34,267 bases of DNA, taken from Burkholderiaceae bacterium. Its GTDB lineage: Bacteria; Pseudomonadota; Gammaproteobacteria; Burkholderiales; Burkholderiaceae_C. The position numbers and the translations under genes were made by a program. The stretch is from contig JAQUDN010000012.1 of the NCBI GenBank assembly GCA_028685665.1, positions 1 to 34,267 on the forward strand, written 5' to 3'. Shown piece after piece: positions 5,342 to 24,539 of this stretch. The notes under the pieces were generated by a model that was not told the DNA's origin, ran no database searches, and saw only the letters and a program-made list of their open reading frames with translations. Every line of letters begins with the position of its first letter. Position 1 is the stretch's first letter.

Positions 5342-5475
5342 GAAGCAGCAGGAAAAAGAGGGGGCATGGACAGCGCGCATTGTGGCCTGAAGCCCGCGCA
5401 CGGCGCGCCTGCGCGCGGCAATAGCCTGCGGGCCGGCCCGGCATTTCGCGGCACTTCCCCAAGGCAAAAACTACA

Positions 5476-5527
5476 CTTTTGATAGCTGAAAGTGCTTACC
5501 TGGATTGCGCTAGAGCCCTGTTTGATT
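5476..5527 (+). repeat. Dispersed ~50-bp repeat, copy A (upstream of mpl)
   Basis: One of four copies that align without gaps around AGCT-N6-GCTT-N9-GSGCTAGAGCC, ending in a T-rich TTTGA block. Here AGCT is at 5484-5487, GCTT at 5494-5497, and GCGCTAGAGCC begins at 5507. It lies in the divergent spacer between the 198-aa gene and mpl. The base composition is clearly lower in GC than its surroundings. Confidence 0.7.
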
Positions 5528-5548
5528 TGAATCGTAGAATCTGCGCCC

Positions 5549-6973
5549 ATGCATATTCACATACTCGGCATTTGTGGCACGTTCATGGGCGGCCTGGCCG
5601 CGCTGGCCCGCGAGGCGGGGCACCAGGTCACGGGCTGCGATGCCGGCGTCTACCCCCCCATGAGCGAGCAGCTGCGCGCTCTGGGTATCGATCTGATCGA
5701 AGGTTTTGGCACCGAGCAGCTCGCGCTGCAGCCCGACATCTTCGTGGTGGGCAATGTGGTCAGCCGCGCCCGCCTGGCCGATGGCACGCCCAAGTTCCCC
5801 TTGATGGAAGCCATTCTGGATGCCGGCCTGCCCTACACCAGCGGCCCGCAATGGCTGGCCGAACAGGTCTTGCAGGGCCGCCATGTCCTGGCCGTGGCAG
5901 GCACCCATGGCAAGACGACCACCACCTCGATGATGGCCTGGATTCTGGAGAGCGCCGGCCTGCAGCCCGGCTTTCTGATCGGTGGCGTGCCGCTGAACTT
6001 TGGCGTGTCGGCCCGCCTGGGCGCAGCGCAGCGGCCCCAGCCCGGCCCCGGCCCGCTGGGGGCGGCTTCGCTGTTTGTGATCGAGGCCGACGAATACGAC
6101 ACCGCCTTTTTCGACAAGCGCAGCAAATTCGTGCACTACCGCCCCCGCACGGCGGTGCTGAACAACCTGGAATTCGACCACGCCGATATTTTTGACGACC
6201 TGGCGGCCATCGAGCGCCAGTTCCACCACCTGCTGCGCACCGTGCCGCCCTCGGGCCGGGTGGTAACCAACGGCCTGGAGGAAAGCCTGGCGCGCGTGCT
6301 GCACCAGGGCTGCTGGAGCGAGGTCAGCAGCTTTGGTGCCGTGGTGAGCGATTTTTCGGCCGCCGGCGATCCGCAGGCCTTCGATGTGCTGCACCGCGGC
6401 CAGCCCGTGGCGCGGGTCGAATGGGCGCTGACCGGGGTGCACAACCAGCTCAACGCCCTGGCCGCCATCGCTGCGGCCCAGCATGTGGGGGTGGCGCCCG
6501 CCACCGCCGCCGCGGCCCTGGGCCGGTTCCAGAACGTCAAGCGCCGCATGGAACTGCGCGGCACGGTACAGGGCATCGCCGTCTACGACGACTTTGCCCA
6601 CCACCCCACGGCGCTGCGCACCACGCTGGACGGCCTGCGCCGCAGCCTGGGGCCTGGCGCGCGCATCCTGGCCGCCTTCGAGCCGCGCAGCAACACCATG
6701 AAGCTCGGCGCCATGAAAAGCCAGCTGCCCTGGGCGCTGGAGCCGGCCGACCGGGCGTTCTGCCACACGGCAGGTCTCGACTGGGACGCGGCCGCCGCGC
6801 TGGCGCCGCTGGGCGTGGGACCGGGCCAGCGGGCCCAGACCGCCCCGGACATCCCCACCCTGGTCGCGCAGATCACCGAAGCCGCCCAGGCCGGTGACCA
6901 CATCGTCTGCATGAGCAACGGCGGCTTCGGCGGGGTGCACGCCCAACTGCTTGAGGCGCTCTCAAAAAAATAG
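5549..6973 (+). CDS. mpl: UDP-MurNAc:L-Ala-gamma-D-Glu-meso-DAP ligase
   Basis: 474 aa. It ligates recycled murein tripeptide to UDP-MurNAc in cytoplasmic peptidoglycan recycling. The Mur-ligase N-terminal Rossmann domain opens with HILGICGTFMGGLA, the form seen in Mpl rather than MurC. The central ATPase P-loop is GTHGKTTT at ~118-125, EADEYDTAFFDKRSK follows, and the C-terminal domain ends normally. The ATG at 5549 has no clear Shine-Dalgarno sequence. A TAGAAT hexamer 12 bases upstream could be a -10 box, which would give a very short leader, but no -35 is evident. The stop codon TAG (6971-6973) is part of repeat copy B. Confidence 0.95.
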   Translation: MHIHILGICGTFMGGLAALAREAGHQVTGCDAGVYPPMSEQLRALGIDLIEGFGTEQLALQPDIFVVGNVVSRARLADGTPKFPLMEAILDAGLPYTSGPQWLAEQVLQGRHVLAVAGTHGKTTTTSMMAWILESAGLQPGFLIGGVPLNFGVSARLGAAQRPQPGPGPLGAASLFVIEADEYDTAFFDKRSKFVHYRPRTAVLNNLEFDHADIFDDLAAIERQFHHLLRTVPPSGRVVTNGLEESLARVLHQGCWSEVSSFGAVVSDFSAAGDPQAFDVLHRGQPVARVEWALTGVHNQLNALAAIAAAQHVGVAPATAAAALGRFQNVKRRMELRGTVQGIAVYDDFAHHPTALRTTLDGLRRSLGPGARILAAFEPRSNTMKLGAMKSQLPWALEPADRAFCHTAGLDWDAAAALAPLGVGPGQRAQTAPDIPTLVAQITEAAQAGDHIVCMSNGGFGGVHAQLLEALSKK

Positions 6974-7013
6974 CTGCCAGCGCTTGGTACACAAGCCCTG
7001 TCAGCCATTTTGA
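6964..7013 (+). repeat. Dispersed ~50-bp repeat, copy B (overlaps mpl stop)
   Basis: AGCT is at 6972-6975, GCTT at 6982-6985, GCCCT at 6995 and TTTTGA at 7008-7013, aligning without gaps to the other three copies. The element begins inside the last mpl codons, and its conserved ATAGCT supplies the TAG stop. GCTTG / CAAGC can form a small hairpin. Confidence 0.7.
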
Positions 7014-7033
7014 CCCTTGAAAAGGGCGGTGAA

Positions 7034-17310: not shown

Positions 17311-18795
17311 CTACGCCGTGCCGCCCACCGTGAGCCCTTCGATGCGCAGCGTAGGCTGGCCCACGCCCACCGGCACGCTCTGGCCTTCCTTGCCGCAGGT
17401 GCCCACGCCGCTGTCCAGGCGCATGTCGTTGCCGATCAGGGTGACCTGCTTGAGGCATTCGGGGCCGCTGCCGACGATGGTGGCGCCCTTGACGGGGTAT
17501 TGGATCTTCCCGTTCTCGACCCAGTAGGCTTCACTCGCCGAAAACACGAACTTGCCCGAGGTGATGTCCACCTGGCCACCGCCAAAGTTGGTGGCGTACA
17601 GACCGCGTTTCATGCTGGCGATGATCTCGGCCGGCTCCTTGTCGCCGCCGAGCATGTAGGTGTTGGTCATGCGCGGCATCGGAATGTGTGCATAGCTCTC
17701 GCGCCGGCCATTGCCGGTGGGGGCCACGCCCATCAGGCGGGCGTTGAGCGAGTCCTGGATATAGCCCTTGAGGATGCCGTCCTCGATCAGCACATTGCGC
17801 TGGCTGGCATGGCCTTCGTCGTCCACATTGAGCGAGCCGCGGCGGTCGGCGAGGGTGCCGTCGTCCAGCACCGTGACGCCCTTGGCTGCCACGCGCTGGC
17901 CGATGCGGCCGCTGAAGGCGCTCGATCCCTTGCGGTTGAAGTCGCCCTCCAGGCCATGGCCAATCGCTTCGTGCAACAGGATGCCCGGCCAGCCGGCGCC
18001 CAACACCACACTCATCTCGCCCGCAGGCGCGGGGCGCGATTCGAGGTTGACCAGCGCGGCATGGACGGCTTCATCGACGTACTGCGCAATTTGCGCCTCA
18101 TCGAAATAAGCCAGGCCAAAGCGCCCGCCCCCGCCCGCAGAACCCATCTCGCGCCGGCCCTTGTGTTCGGCGATCACCGTGACCGACAAGCGCACCAAGG
18201 GGCGCACATCGGCGGCCAGCGTGCCATCGGCCCGGGCCACGAGCACCACGTCGTACTCACTGGCCAGGCCCGCCATGACCTGCACCACGCGCGGGTCCTT
18301 GGCCCGTGCGCGCTGCTCCACCTGGCCCAAAAGGGCCACCTTGGCCGTGCTGTCCAGCGTGGCGATCGGGTCCAGACCCGGGTACAGGCTGCGGCTAGTC
18401 GCTATCTTTTTGGTAGCTACCCGCGCTTTACGGGATTGGGCTGCAGCCGAAATAGTCCGTACCGTGCGCGCCGCGTCGAGCAGCGAGGCTTCAGAAATAT
18501 CGTCGGAATAGGCGAAGGCCGTCTTCTCGCCGCTGACCGCCCGCACGCCGACGCCCTGGTCGATGCTGAAGGAGCCGGTCTTGACGATGCCTTCTTCCAG
18601 GCTCCAGCCCTCGCTGCGGGTGTACTGGAAATACAGATCGGCATCGTCCACCTGGTGGGCGCGGATTTCCGCCAGGGCCCGGGCCAGATGGCCTTCGTCC
18701 AGGCCAAAAGGGGTCAGCAGCAACTGGCGCGCAATGTCGATGCGCTGGGTAGTGGCCGCGCGCTGGGGCGCGGCAGAGGGGGAACGAGAGGTCAT
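17311..18795 (-). CDS. tldD: Metalloprotease subunit TldD
   Basis: 494 aa. TldD with TldE/PmbA forms a zinc protease acting on modified peptides and antitoxins. The zinc motif H275-E-A-I-G-H280 followed by GLEGDF is intact, and the C-terminal part (TPTGNGRRESYAH-like APTGNGRRESYAH, GGGQVDITSGKF, CGKEGQSVPVGVGQPTL) is highly conserved. Residues ~114-132 are encoded by repeat copy C, read on the opposite strand. They replace a variable segment of E. coli TldD at nearly equal length, so activity is probably kept. Codons there (ATA, GTA, ACT, CGT) are unlike the rest of the gene. tldE is not in the window. The gene follows rodA on the same strand. Confidence 0.96.
   Translation of the reverse strand: MTSRSPSAAPQRAATTQRIDIARQLLLTPFGLDEGHLARALAEIRAHQVDDADLYFQYTRSEGWSLEEGIVKTGSFSIDQGVGVRAVSGEKTAFAYSDDISEASLLDAARTVRTISAAAQSRKARVATKKIATSRSLYPGLDPIATLDSTAKVALLGQVEQRARAKDPRVVQVMAGLASEYDVVLVARADGTLAADVRPLVRLSVTVIAEHKGRREMGSAGGGGRFGLAYFDEAQIAQYVDEAVHAALVNLESRPAPAGEMSVVLGAGWPGILLHEAIGHGLEGDFNRKGSSAFSGRIGQRVAAKGVTVLDDGTLADRRGSLNVDDEGHASQRNVLIEDGILKGYIQDSLNARLMGVAPTGNGRRESYAHIPMPRMTNTYMLGGDKEPAEIIASMKRGLYATNFGGGQVDITSGKFVFSASEAYWVENGKIQYPVKGATIVGSGPECLKQVTLIGNDMRLDSGVGTCGKEGQSVPVGVGQPTLRIEGLTVGGTA
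18407..18456 (+). repeat. Dispersed ~50-bp repeat, copy C (inside tldD)
   Basis: AGCT is at 18415-18418, GCTT at 18425-18428 and GGGCTGCAGCC from 18438, aligning without gaps to copies A, B and D. It is on the plus strand, antisense to tldD, and is read through without stop as TISAAAQSRKARVATKKIA. Confidence 0.65.
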
Positions 18796-20710: not shown

Positions 20711-22780
20711 ATGCATGCACTGTTTGATGAAGCCGGCAAATTCATGGCCGGACGTATCCTGTCCGAAGCGGACGCCTCGGCCCAGGTGGAGCTCGATTCG
20801 GGCAAGCGGGTCAAGGTCAAGGCCGCCAACATCCTCTTGAAATTCGACAAGCCCGCCCCGGCCGAGTTGATGGCCCAGGCCCAGGCCCTGGCCGAAACCA
20901 TCGAGCTGGACCTGGCCTGGGAGTTCGCGCCCGAGGACGACTTCGGCTTTGCCGACCTGGCGCGCGACTATTTCTCGGAGAACGCCACGCTGGTCCAGCA
21001 GGCGGGGGCCTTGTTCCGGCTGCACGAATCACCGCACTATTTCCGCCGCGCGGGCAAGGGGCGTTTCCGCAAGGCCTCGGCCGAGATCCTGCAGCAGGCC
21101 CTGGTCGCCATCGAGAAGAAAAAGGCGCTGCTGCAGCAGATCGCCGACTGGGCCACCGCGCTGGGCCAGGGCGAATGCCCGCAGCCCATCCGGGAGCAGC
21201 TCTACAAAATCCTGTTCAAGCCCGACAAGAACGCGCCCGAATACAAGGCCGTGGTCGAAGCCAGCCGGGCCACCCACACCGCCCCCCTGGAGCTGCTGCA
21301 AAAAGCGGGCGCCATCGACTCGGCCTACCAGTTCCACTGGAACCGCTTTTTGTTCGAGAACTTCCCCAAGGGCACGGGCTTTCCGCCCCTGGAAGCCCCC
21401 CTGCCGCCCGACGACCTGCCGCTGGCCCCCGTGCAGGCCTACTCGATCGACGACTCGCAGACCACCGAAATCGACGATGCGCTCTCGGTCCAGGGCCTGG
21501 GCAGCGGCACCGTGGTGCTGGGCATCCACATCGCCGCGCCGGGCCTGGCCATCCAGCCGGGCAGCGCCATCGACCAACTGGGCCGCCACCGCCTGTCCAC
21601 CGTGTACATGCCGGGCTACAAGATCACCATGCTGCCCGACCCGGTGGTGCAGATCTACACGCTCGACGAAGGCCGCGCCAACCCGGCGGTGTCGCTGTAC
21701 TGCACGATCGACGAGGCCACGCTGGCCATCGTCTCCACCGAAACCCGGCTCGAACGCGTGCCCGTGGCCGTGAACCTGCGCCACGACCAGCTCGACCACA
21801 TCGTCACCGAAGCCTGGCTGCGCGACCCCAGCATTCAGGTCGAAAACACCCCCGAGGCCTTGCTGGGCCTGCGCGAGCAGCTCTCCTTTTTGCACCGCCT
21901 GGCCCAAAGCCTCAAGGCGCAGCGCGAAGTGGTGCGCGGCAAGCCCGAAAACTTCAACCGGCCCGACTACAACTTCCGCCTGGTCGGCAACGACCGCGGC
22001 GAACCCGTGGGCACCGAGACCGTGCAGATCAGTACCCGCCAGCGCGGCGCACCGCTGGACCTGATCGTCGCCGAGGCCGCCATCGTCGCCAACAGCACCT
22101 GGGGCAGTTGGCTGGCCGAGCTGGGCGTGCCGGGCATCTACCGCAGCCAGGCCAGCATGGCCCCCGGCGTGAAGGTGCGCATGGGCACCAAGGCCTTGCC
22201 GCACGCCGGCATTGGCGTCAAGAGCTACGCCTGGGCCACCTCGCCGCTGCGCCGGTATGTCGATCTGGTCAACCAGTGGCAGATCATTGCCTGTGCGCGC
22301 CACGGCGCCACGGCCGCCCTGGCCGCGCCCTTCAAGCCCAAGGACGCCGAGCTGTTCTCGATCATCAGCAGCTTTGACGCCACCTACGGCGCCTACAACG
22401 GCTACCAGGCGGGCATGGAGCGCTTCTGGACGCTGCAGTACCTGCGCCAGAACCAGCTGACCGAACTCACGGCCACCGTGTTCAAGGAAGGCCCGGGCGG
22501 CAGCTTTCTGGTGCGCGCCGATGACCTGCCGCTGGTGTTCCCCGTGCTCGGGGCGCAGAACCTGCCGCGCGGCGCACGCCTGCGCGTCAAGCTGGGCGCC
22601 ATCGACGACATCACCCTCGACCTGCACGGCACCGTGCTGGAACGCCTGGACAGCCCCGCGCCCGACGCCGCCAGCGAAGGCGACACCGAGGAAGACGACG
22701 ACGCCGTGGCCGGCCCCATCGCCATCGCGGTGGACATGAACGAGAACGAAGCAGGCAGCGCCGATCCAGCCACACCGTGA
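20711..22780 (+). CDS. RNB-domain exoribonuclease (RNase II/R family)
   Basis: 689 aa. A 3'-to-5' hydrolytic exoribonuclease. The N-terminal ~230 residues are a variable domain. The RNB catalytic core begins about residue 244 with YSIDDSQTTEIDDALS, whose aspartates (D247, D255, D256) match the Mg-binding cluster of RNase II, and continues to WATSPLRRYVDLVNQWQ. A degenerate C-terminal S1-like region precedes an acidic tail (EGDTEEDDDAV). The organisation differs from classical E. coli Rnb and Rnr and matches the shorter RNB proteins common in betaproteobacteria. Its TGA overlaps the GTG start of tonB. Confidence 0.93.
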   Translation: MHALFDEAGKFMAGRILSEADASAQVELDSGKRVKVKAANILLKFDKPAPAELMAQAQALAETIELDLAWEFAPEDDFGFADLARDYFSENATLVQQAGALFRLHESPHYFRRAGKGRFRKASAEILQQALVAIEKKKALLQQIADWATALGQGECPQPIREQLYKILFKPDKNAPEYKAVVEASRATHTAPLELLQKAGAIDSAYQFHWNRFLFENFPKGTGFPPLEAPLPPDDLPLAPVQAYSIDDSQTTEIDDALSVQGLGSGTVVLGIHIAAPGLAIQPGSAIDQLGRHRLSTVYMPGYKITMLPDPVVQIYTLDEGRANPAVSLYCTIDEATLAIVSTETRLERVPVAVNLRHDQLDHIVTEAWLRDPSIQVENTPEALLGLREQLSFLHRLAQSLKAQREVVRGKPENFNRPDYNFRLVGNDRGEPVGTETVQISTRQRGAPLDLIVAEAAIVANSTWGSWLAELGVPGIYRSQASMAPGVKVRMGTKALPHAGIGVKSYAWATSPLRRYVDLVNQWQIIACARHGATAALAAPFKPKDAELFSIISSFDATYGAYNGYQAGMERFWTLQYLRQNQLTELTATVFKEGPGGSFLVRADDLPLVFPVLGAQNLPRGARLRVKLGAIDDITLDLHGTVLERLDSPAPDAASEGDTEEDDDAVAGPIAIAVDMNENEAGSADPATP

Positions 22781-23684: not shown

Positions 23685-24539
23685 ATGAATGCGCCCATGC
23701 CGTCCTTGAGCCCCCCTGCCGATCTGTACTGCGTCATGGGCAACCCGGTGGCCCACAGCCGCTCGCCCGCCATCCACACCCGCTTTGCCGAACTGACCGG
23801 CGAGCACCTGGTCTATGAACGCCGCCTGCTGCCGCTCGACGGCTTTGCCCAGGGCGTGCGCGATTTCCTGGCCGAAGGCGGGCGCGGCTGCAACGTCACC
23901 GTGCCCTTCAAGCTCGAAGCCGCCCAGCTGGCCGACCAGTGCAGCGAGCGCGTGCGCCTGGCCGGCGCGGCCAACACCCTGCTCTTCACCACCGAAGGCA
24001 TCCATGCCGACAACACCGACGGCCTGGGCCTGGTGGCCGACATCACGCGCAATGCCGGCGTGGCGCTGGCCGGGCGCGATGTGCTGCTGGTCGGCGCTGG
24101 CGGGGCCGCCGCCGGGGTGCTGGGCCCGCTGATCGAGGCAGGAGCCCGCCGCATCACCGTGGCCAACCGCACCCTGTCCCGGGCCGAGGCCTTGGTGGCC
24201 GCCCATGCCCCGCTGGCCGCGCTACATAAAACAGAGCTACTCGCGTCCACCCCACAAGGGCTAGAGGCCGATTTCGACATCACCATCAACGCCACCGCCA
24301 GCAGCCTGGCGGGAGCGGAAGTGCCGGTGCCGGCCCGGGTGCTGCGCGCCGGCAGCCTGGCCTACGACATGATGTACGGCCCCGCCGCCCAGGGCTTTCT
24401 GGACTGGGCGCGCCAGCACGGCGCCACCCCGCGCGACGGCCTGGGCATGCTGGTCGAACAGGCGGCCGAGGCCTTTGCCCTGTGGCGCGGCGTGCGCCCG
24501 CCCTCGGCCCAGGTACTGGCCGAACTGCAGGCGCACTAA
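23685..24539 (+). CDS. aroE: Shikimate dehydrogenase (NADP)
   Basis: 284 aa. It reduces 3-dehydroshikimate to shikimate. The shikimate-binding NPVAHSRSP (~20-28), catalytic Lys76 in NVTVPFK, Asp112 in ADNTDG, NADP loop LVGAGGAAAG (~135-144), ANRT (~160-163) and NATASSL (~202-208) are all present. Residues ~181-199 come from repeat copy D, read in the same direction as the gene; the codons there (three CTA, ACA, AAA) are atypical. The segment lies between two strands of the Rossmann domain where the family varies in length, and total length is normal, so the enzyme is likely active. The start may be M1 or M5. Confidence 0.96.
   Translation: MNAPMPSLSPPADLYCVMGNPVAHSRSPAIHTRFAELTGEHLVYERRLLPLDGFAQGVRDFLAEGGRGCNVTVPFKLEAAQLADQCSERVRLAGAANTLLFTTEGIHADNTDGLGLVADITRNAGVALAGRDVLLVGAGGAAAGVLGPLIEAGARRITVANRTLSRAEALVAAHAPLAALHKTELLASTPQGLEADFDITINATASSLAGAEVPVPARVLRAGSLAYDMMYGPAAQGFLDWARQHGATPRDGLGMLVEQAAEAFALWRGVRPPSAQVLAELQAH
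24227..24278 (+). repeat. Dispersed ~50-bp repeat, copy D (inside aroE)
   Basis: AGCT is at 24235-24238, GTCC replaces GCTT at 24245-24248, and GGGCTAGAGGCC begins at 24258, followed by GATTTCGA. It aligns without gaps to copies A-C and is closest to A in the GCTAGAG block. It is read in frame within aroE as HKTELLASTPQGLEADFDI. Confidence 0.65.

Follow-up and report, generated by a model that had tools for sequence, protein, structure and literature searches.

In-frame copies of a 66-nt palindromic repeat in aroE and other genes of Comamonadaceae

Introduction

Within the shikimate dehydrogenase gene aroE of a Burkholderiaceae bacterium lies a stretch that resembles repeats found elsewhere on the same contig, which raises the question of how repeat DNA came to encode part of an enzyme and whether it does anything there. 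The contig (C138, 34,267 nt, from an assembly of 3.37 Mb in 285 contigs) was analysed over its full length and is referred to here as the window. A preliminary description of it held that the copy in aroE and a second one in tldD are two independent exaptations, and that the family is tolerated in coding regions generally. In-frame palindromic repeats were reportedly described in earlier work as a feature of Rickettsia.

Results

A dispersed 66-nt repeat with a copy in aroE

Seed copies were collected with a degenerate pattern that had 25 matches genome-wide, compared with none for the same pattern reversed. The alignment of 25 genome copies other than the one in aroE (copy D), designated A1, gave a covariance model of 66 positions (R1). 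Four copies in the window, with GC contents of 42–55%, are recognized by this model (Table 1), and copy B is found on both strands because it is highly palindromic. Copy D is a member of the family: R1, built without it, gives it 28.2 bits, and an HMM of A1 gives 19.1 bits to copy D (24221–24276) and 15.5 bits to copy C, compared with maxima of 4.9 bits on the same 275 kb reversed and 9.1 bits on 353 kb of other loci reversed. The proposal that a repeat copy is read in frame within aroE, between the NRT and NATASS motifs, is thus borne out at the site proposed, although the extent first given, 24227–24278, is slightly short at both ends. A direct-repeat search of the window missed the family because its copies are too divergent, and exact matches to the copy D word are scarce in the genome, at three sites. 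A further repeat-like match inside an RNB-domain gene (21831–21896, minus strand; 11.2 bits with R1 and 8.0 with the HMM) is weak and close to chance level.

Table 1. Copies of the repeat and their host genes in the window
Feature	Position	Strand	Evidence
aroE, shikimate dehydrogenase, host of copy D	23685–24539	+	NCBIfam PRK00258, 363.5 bits (cut-off 221)
Copy D, sense and in frame in aroE	24221–24286	+	R1, 28.2 bits, E = 2.8e-4 for the window, positions 1–66
Palindromic core of copy D, CTCGCGTCC / loop / AAGGGCTAG, mismatched	24240–24264	+	A1 register, columns 20–44
Copy C, antisense within tldD, interior, stop-free	18401–18466	+	R1, 19.7 bits, E = 0.031
tldD, host of copy C	17311–18795	-	NCBIfam TldD, 669.9 bits
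Copy A	5470–5535	+	R1, 47.7 bits, E = 5.7e-9
Copy B	6958–7023	+	R1, 47.7 bits on +, 17.3 bits on -

The family consensus is GCTnTTnATTTnATAGCTGCTAGCGCTTnCTGGATAAGCGCTAGAGGCnnTTTTGGnTnnAA, whose 66 nt correspond to 22 codons and contain a candidate hairpin with a 9-bp stem and a 7-nt loop. Pairing is seen in 86% of cells across the 25 copies, which were picked by a pattern containing the stem, and covariation is weak; RNAalifold, run on the copies, did not choose the AAGCGCT/AGCGCTT stem. Across the 18 genomes reached via named loci, the highest count of the 12-mer GCGCTAGAGGCC is 97, in Simplicispira hankyongi, where the reversed word matches once. Within the window's own family, the repeat is present at E ≤ 0.001 in 24 of 80 genomes. 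In the window's genome, R1 returns 149 rows at E ≤ 1, two of which are opposite-strand duplicates, leaving at least 147 distinct copies (scoring covered the best 150 of 2021 candidates).

Genomic placement of the copies

When copies C and D are counted together with the 147 copies of the genome scan, 20 of 149 lie in the interior of an open frame with coding sequence on both sides, 8 in sense and 12 in antisense, confirming that the element is open on both strands. As had been proposed, the two window copies are oppositely oriented relative to their genes: copy D is sense, and copy C is antisense because tldD lies on the minus strand. On the genes used to train it, the frame caller for coding copies was right in 77 of 78 segments. 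Without C and D, 18 of 147 copies (12%) are interior. Coding sequence makes up roughly nine tenths of a bacterial genome, so insertions into genes are strongly depleted. Among non-interior copies with two flanking genes called, 31 and 28 have co-directional neighbours, 17 convergent and 3 divergent ones. Where a gene was called on one side only, 32 copies face its 3′ end and 7 its 5′ end; for the other 11 non-interior copies, neither side had a called gene or one flank was too short. The family is therefore mainly a REP-like repeat near gene 3′ ends; given the coding space available, its coding copies are rare, though not exceptional. General tolerance in coding regions is thus true only in part, as 18 further copies do sit in coding frames while the share of interior copies shows strong depletion.

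About 20 host genes carry interior copies in sense or antisense. A named protein family supports 19 of the 20 ORFs, and one is unmatched. The hosts are aroE, tldD, mutS, an SrkA-type kinase, thiL, uvrD, purK, cobS, the mtn nucleosidase, a PCC-type carboxylase subunit, a carboxyltransferase, moeA, an ABC-transporter-like ORF, a YgjP-like ORF, purL, earP, truB, a YgiQ-type radical-SAM ORF and an M16-type peptidase; the repeat falls outside the domain that gave the match in the YgjP-like and ABC-like ORFs. Two reading frames occur among the sense copies. The frame used in aroE, LQKTELLAxxxQALE, is also read in mutS and, in four other genomes, in AddA/RecB-like ORFs, and the second, ALxxIAASAxxxSAG, in the SrkA-type kinase, thiL, mtn and the M16 peptidase, with MiaA of another genome holding a copy in the same register. 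The AddA/RecB-like helicase ORFs (loci L283, L284, L294 and L297) share an LLQKTELLxx segment; L297 was tested and falls below the curated cut-offs. No pattern of concerted evolution among the aroE, mutS and AddA-like copies within a genome was seen by eye.

The aroE copy across related genera

Copy D supplies the codons CTA CAT AAA ACA GAG CTA CTC GCG TCC ACC CCA CAA GGG CTA GAG GCC GAT, which are residues 180–196 of AroE, and the element spans residues 180 to about 197, between NRT (161–163) and NATASS (202–207). In an AlphaFold2 model (pLDDT 93.4), which aligns along the whole chain with the solved AroE 3o8q (Z 38.5), helix 164–180 is followed by loop 181–183, strand 184–188 and strand 197–202. 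On this model, the element covers the end of the helix, strand 184–188 and the run-up to strand 197–202, and the peptide fits the general AroE pattern E-L-x-A ... L ... FD. The A-run of the element was also considered as a frameshift site and rejected, as the heptamer, judged by eye, is in the wrong frame.

The same aroE codons are occupied in many genera. With a model built without any aroE copy, the element is detected at this site in 49 of 80 fetched loci (E ≤ 1; best 62.2 bits), and at 55.9 bits in one of 20 loci of the order sample (L136). Copy D is therefore not an event private to this genome; it is shared among genera of Comamonadaceae. Carriers belong to the Acidovorax, Comamonas, Rhodoferax and Polaromonas groups, Acidovorax providing the closest AroE relatives of the window's gene, and the element is absent or eroded in Variovorax, Ramlibacter and Pseudorhodoferax, a group nested among carriers in the aroE tree. 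A conserved AroE sequence at this site across genera lacking the repeat was not found in this comparison of orthologues. On the aroE tree, which scored L136 as lacking the element it has and left out five outgroup rows, presence and absence require 17–18 changes, at least nine of them forced by well-supported branches; therefore, either losses have been many or detection is patchy. We read this history from the sequences as probably one old gain with repeated decay, with separate gains as the alternative. A second copy in the same orientation lies 0.8–0.9 kb downstream of aroE in four loci (L002:2704–2769, L017:2645–2710, L022:2645–2710 and L047:2649–2714, all on the minus strand).

Counted from NRT to FD, 39 of 51 carriers have 38 residues and the other 12 have 42–48, compared with 38 residues in 29 of 31 own-family rows without a detected element and a median of 34 (31–45) in 19 genomes of other families. 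Some species retain the 3′ end of the repeat in aroE as 4–10 additional codons. No empty aroE site beside a full-length insert was seen, and because all family members are near-equal in length, insertion into aroE is not directly observed.

The codons of the element are foreign to the gene and AT-rich. GC at third positions (GC3) is 0.433 in the element and 0.867 in the rest of aroE, lower in 50 of 50 rows and forming the lowest window of the gene. CTA stands at codon 180 in 44 of 50 rows, compared with 0.4% of leucine codons elsewhere in aroE. Rows without a detected element also have their GC3 minimum at the element site (0.707), as eroded remnants would show. Mean codon identity, 0.67 in the element versus 0.63 elsewhere, shows no clear excess, and because this test is blunted by codon bias we relied on the rare-codon and GC3 test instead. 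CTA, CAA, AAA and ACA are kept in the element across deep divergences while other synonymous sites vary, and the third positions of codons 185, 186 and 193 vary freely.

Length effects in mutS, moeA and other genes

The mutS element is read in the aroE frame (L208, L276–L304 and L306–L335) with no net change in length, the MutS stretch being 68 residues long with the element in the window's genome and nearly all relatives, and also 68 in 11 of 12 element-less outgroup rows (L338–L349). GC3 is again lower in the element, at 0.583 versus 0.877 elsewhere in 34 rows, whereas the 12 outgroup rows have 0.934 and 0.921, respectively. At the same element position as in aroE, CTA is found in 22 of 34 mutS rows, compared with a share of 1.2% among the other leucine codons. 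Genomes with at least three detected copies have this codon at the start of the mutS element in 17 of 17 cases and the other genomes in 5 of 19, counts that are uncorrected for relatedness. MutS of two genomes (G178 and G216) has 20 and 35 additional residues exactly at the element site.

In MoeA (L178, G000:C266:1403–1468), the corresponding stretch has 34 residues compared with 5 in E. coli MoeA, a gain of about 29 that spans the antisense copy, and this appears from the sequence to be the clearest full-length insertion seen. The other gains are 10–12 residues in SrkA, 7 in PurL, about 4 in AroE and 0 in MutS, and Pfam alignments show none in PurK and EarP. That the aroE and mutS copies bring little or no net length change relative to relatives without them was unexpected from the picture originally given. 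The graded series from MoeA through SrkA and PurL to MutS suggests insertion followed by trimming, although replacement is still a serious rival. At these sites the native sequence partly resembles the repeat, with LQ..EL in MutS and QALELIA in SrkA.

A repeat-encoded start in an M16-type peptidase

The first residues of the M16-type peptidase are encoded by the repeat (L119:1481–1546, minus strand, equivalent to G000:C5:7601–7666), at 60.5 bits for a copy that is itself among the 25 of the model. The start of the gene is repeat-like in at least three further loci (L405, 56.7 bits; L407, 51.8; L403, 49.2), with weaker likeness in L406, L404 and L413. L402 is also among the M16-type peptidase loci with a repeat-encoded N-terminus, which come from several genera of the family. 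The N-terminal peptide in the window's genome, MTLKKIAARALLAGAGALLGSGSAWA, looks by eye like a Sec signal peptide and is a candidate only.

Discussion

Taken together, these observations make it probable that copy D, read in frame, is an old copy of a REP-like repeat, about 66 nt long and with a candidate hairpin, that is specific to Comamonadaceae. It would have entered aroE before the genera split and then been trimmed to near the length of the old segment, and it would now be eroding, presumably completely in the Variovorax group. Its survival would owe something to a stop-free frame, with GAG and CAA where most intergenic copies have TAG and TAA, and to a peptide, roughly LQKTELLAxxxQ(A/G)LEAD, that could fit its place in the NADP domain, with a helix before it and two strands beside it. 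The repeat itself would spread as selfish or REP-like DNA, with most copies close to gene 3′ ends. The retention of CTA, CAA, AAA and ACA counts against this explanation, because simple decay does not predict it; so do the many changes required on the aroE tree and the lack of any empty aroE site beside a full-length insert. The element most likely has no role in AroE beyond being acceptable protein that fills its place, and exaptation, in the sense of a function gained in aroE or tldD, is unsupported.

Trimming is not the only way to arrive at equal lengths. Repeat DNA may instead have overwritten, without changing length, stretches of aroE and mutS that already resembled it, through templated gene conversion or short-patch illegitimate recombination; short-patch replacement was reportedly treated by Harms in 2016. 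The unchanged length of MutS, the small gain in AroE and the lack of any in PurK and EarP would all follow, as would the native likeness in MutS and SrkA, and the strand supplied by the repeat is one present in every AroE. However, the extra residues of MoeA and the additional codons of some aroE copies show that insertion does occur, and we consider such replacement rather unlikely. The retained rare codons raise a different idea, namely selection at the level of DNA, with the 5′ arm CTACAAAAANCAGAGC as a candidate site for binding or processing that coding regions would retain. The excess of CTA in the mutS element, its association with copy load and the recurrence of the same arm in the AddA/RecB-like gene are consistent with this, but that association is uncorrected for relatedness, the free third positions in aroE argue against it and codon identity shows no clear excess, so that we regard it as improbable. 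Finally, an ordinary AroE segment could resemble the repeat by chance or convergence, given that the peptide fits the usual AroE pattern and the lengths agree; this is refuted for practical purposes by the scores of other species, which reach 62 bits with a model that includes no aroE copy, by reversed controls that stay at or below 9.1 bits and by AT-rich codons in every row.

Among known repeats, the closest parallel is offered by the Rickettsia palindromic elements (RPEs), elements of about 100–150 bp in Rickettsia and Wolbachia which are described as lying in frame in unrelated housekeeping genes as well as between genes, with orthologues carrying the element at the same site (PMC10969869, PMC3767692). 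The 66-nt family is likewise found in frame inside ORFs, at the same site in orthologues and between genes. It differs in its 66-nt length, its Comamonadaceae hosts, the use of both orientations and coding copies whose net addition to the protein is mostly small or nil. By these descriptions, the repeat appears to work like RPEs and yet to be a separate, shorter family in another bacterial class. With REP/BIME and RAYT-mobilised repeats, it shares small size, many copies and a preference for gene 3′ ends, and its palindromic core is a candidate hairpin like theirs. Large REP super-families are described as having a GTAG/CGTC foot (PMC3733652), whereas neither end of the A1 consensus carries GTAG or CGTC. 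The one Y1-type transposase gene found in the genome (PF01797, C117:5169–5495) has a 15-bit repeat-like match nearby and no strong copy beside it. BRE, a dispersed intergenic repeat of Comamonadaceae and Bordetella with some copies inside coding sequences, is given as 75–91 bp long, 69% GC and often tandem (PMC3110155). The 66-nt family is similar in lying mostly between genes, in its Comamonadaceae hosts and in having some coding copies, but it is 66 nt long, 42–55% GC in its four window copies and dispersed, a separation made on described length and GC. Literature searches on Comamonadaceae repeats turned up BRE alone, which is not proof that the 66-nt family is undescribed. A literature search by sequence gave no paper with the family 12-mer, and shorter words gave unrelated papers only, among the matches listed.

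A wider reading is that Comamonadaceae may harbour an RPE-like 'protein-building' repeat that has contributed translated segments to about 20 housekeeping genes of a single genome, including one core strand in AroE, part of the MutS helical domain and the whole export signal of the M16 peptidase, in part by length-neutral overwrites and not by insertion; we put this forward tentatively, as a possibility we rather doubt. The M16 case suggests that the repeat may turn into a functional targeting signal. The codon signature, AT-rich and with CTA, marks and dates repeat-derived segments. A separate family in environmental betaproteobacteria, with aroE and mutS copies across genera, makes the idea of repeats as protein segments testable in many genomes.
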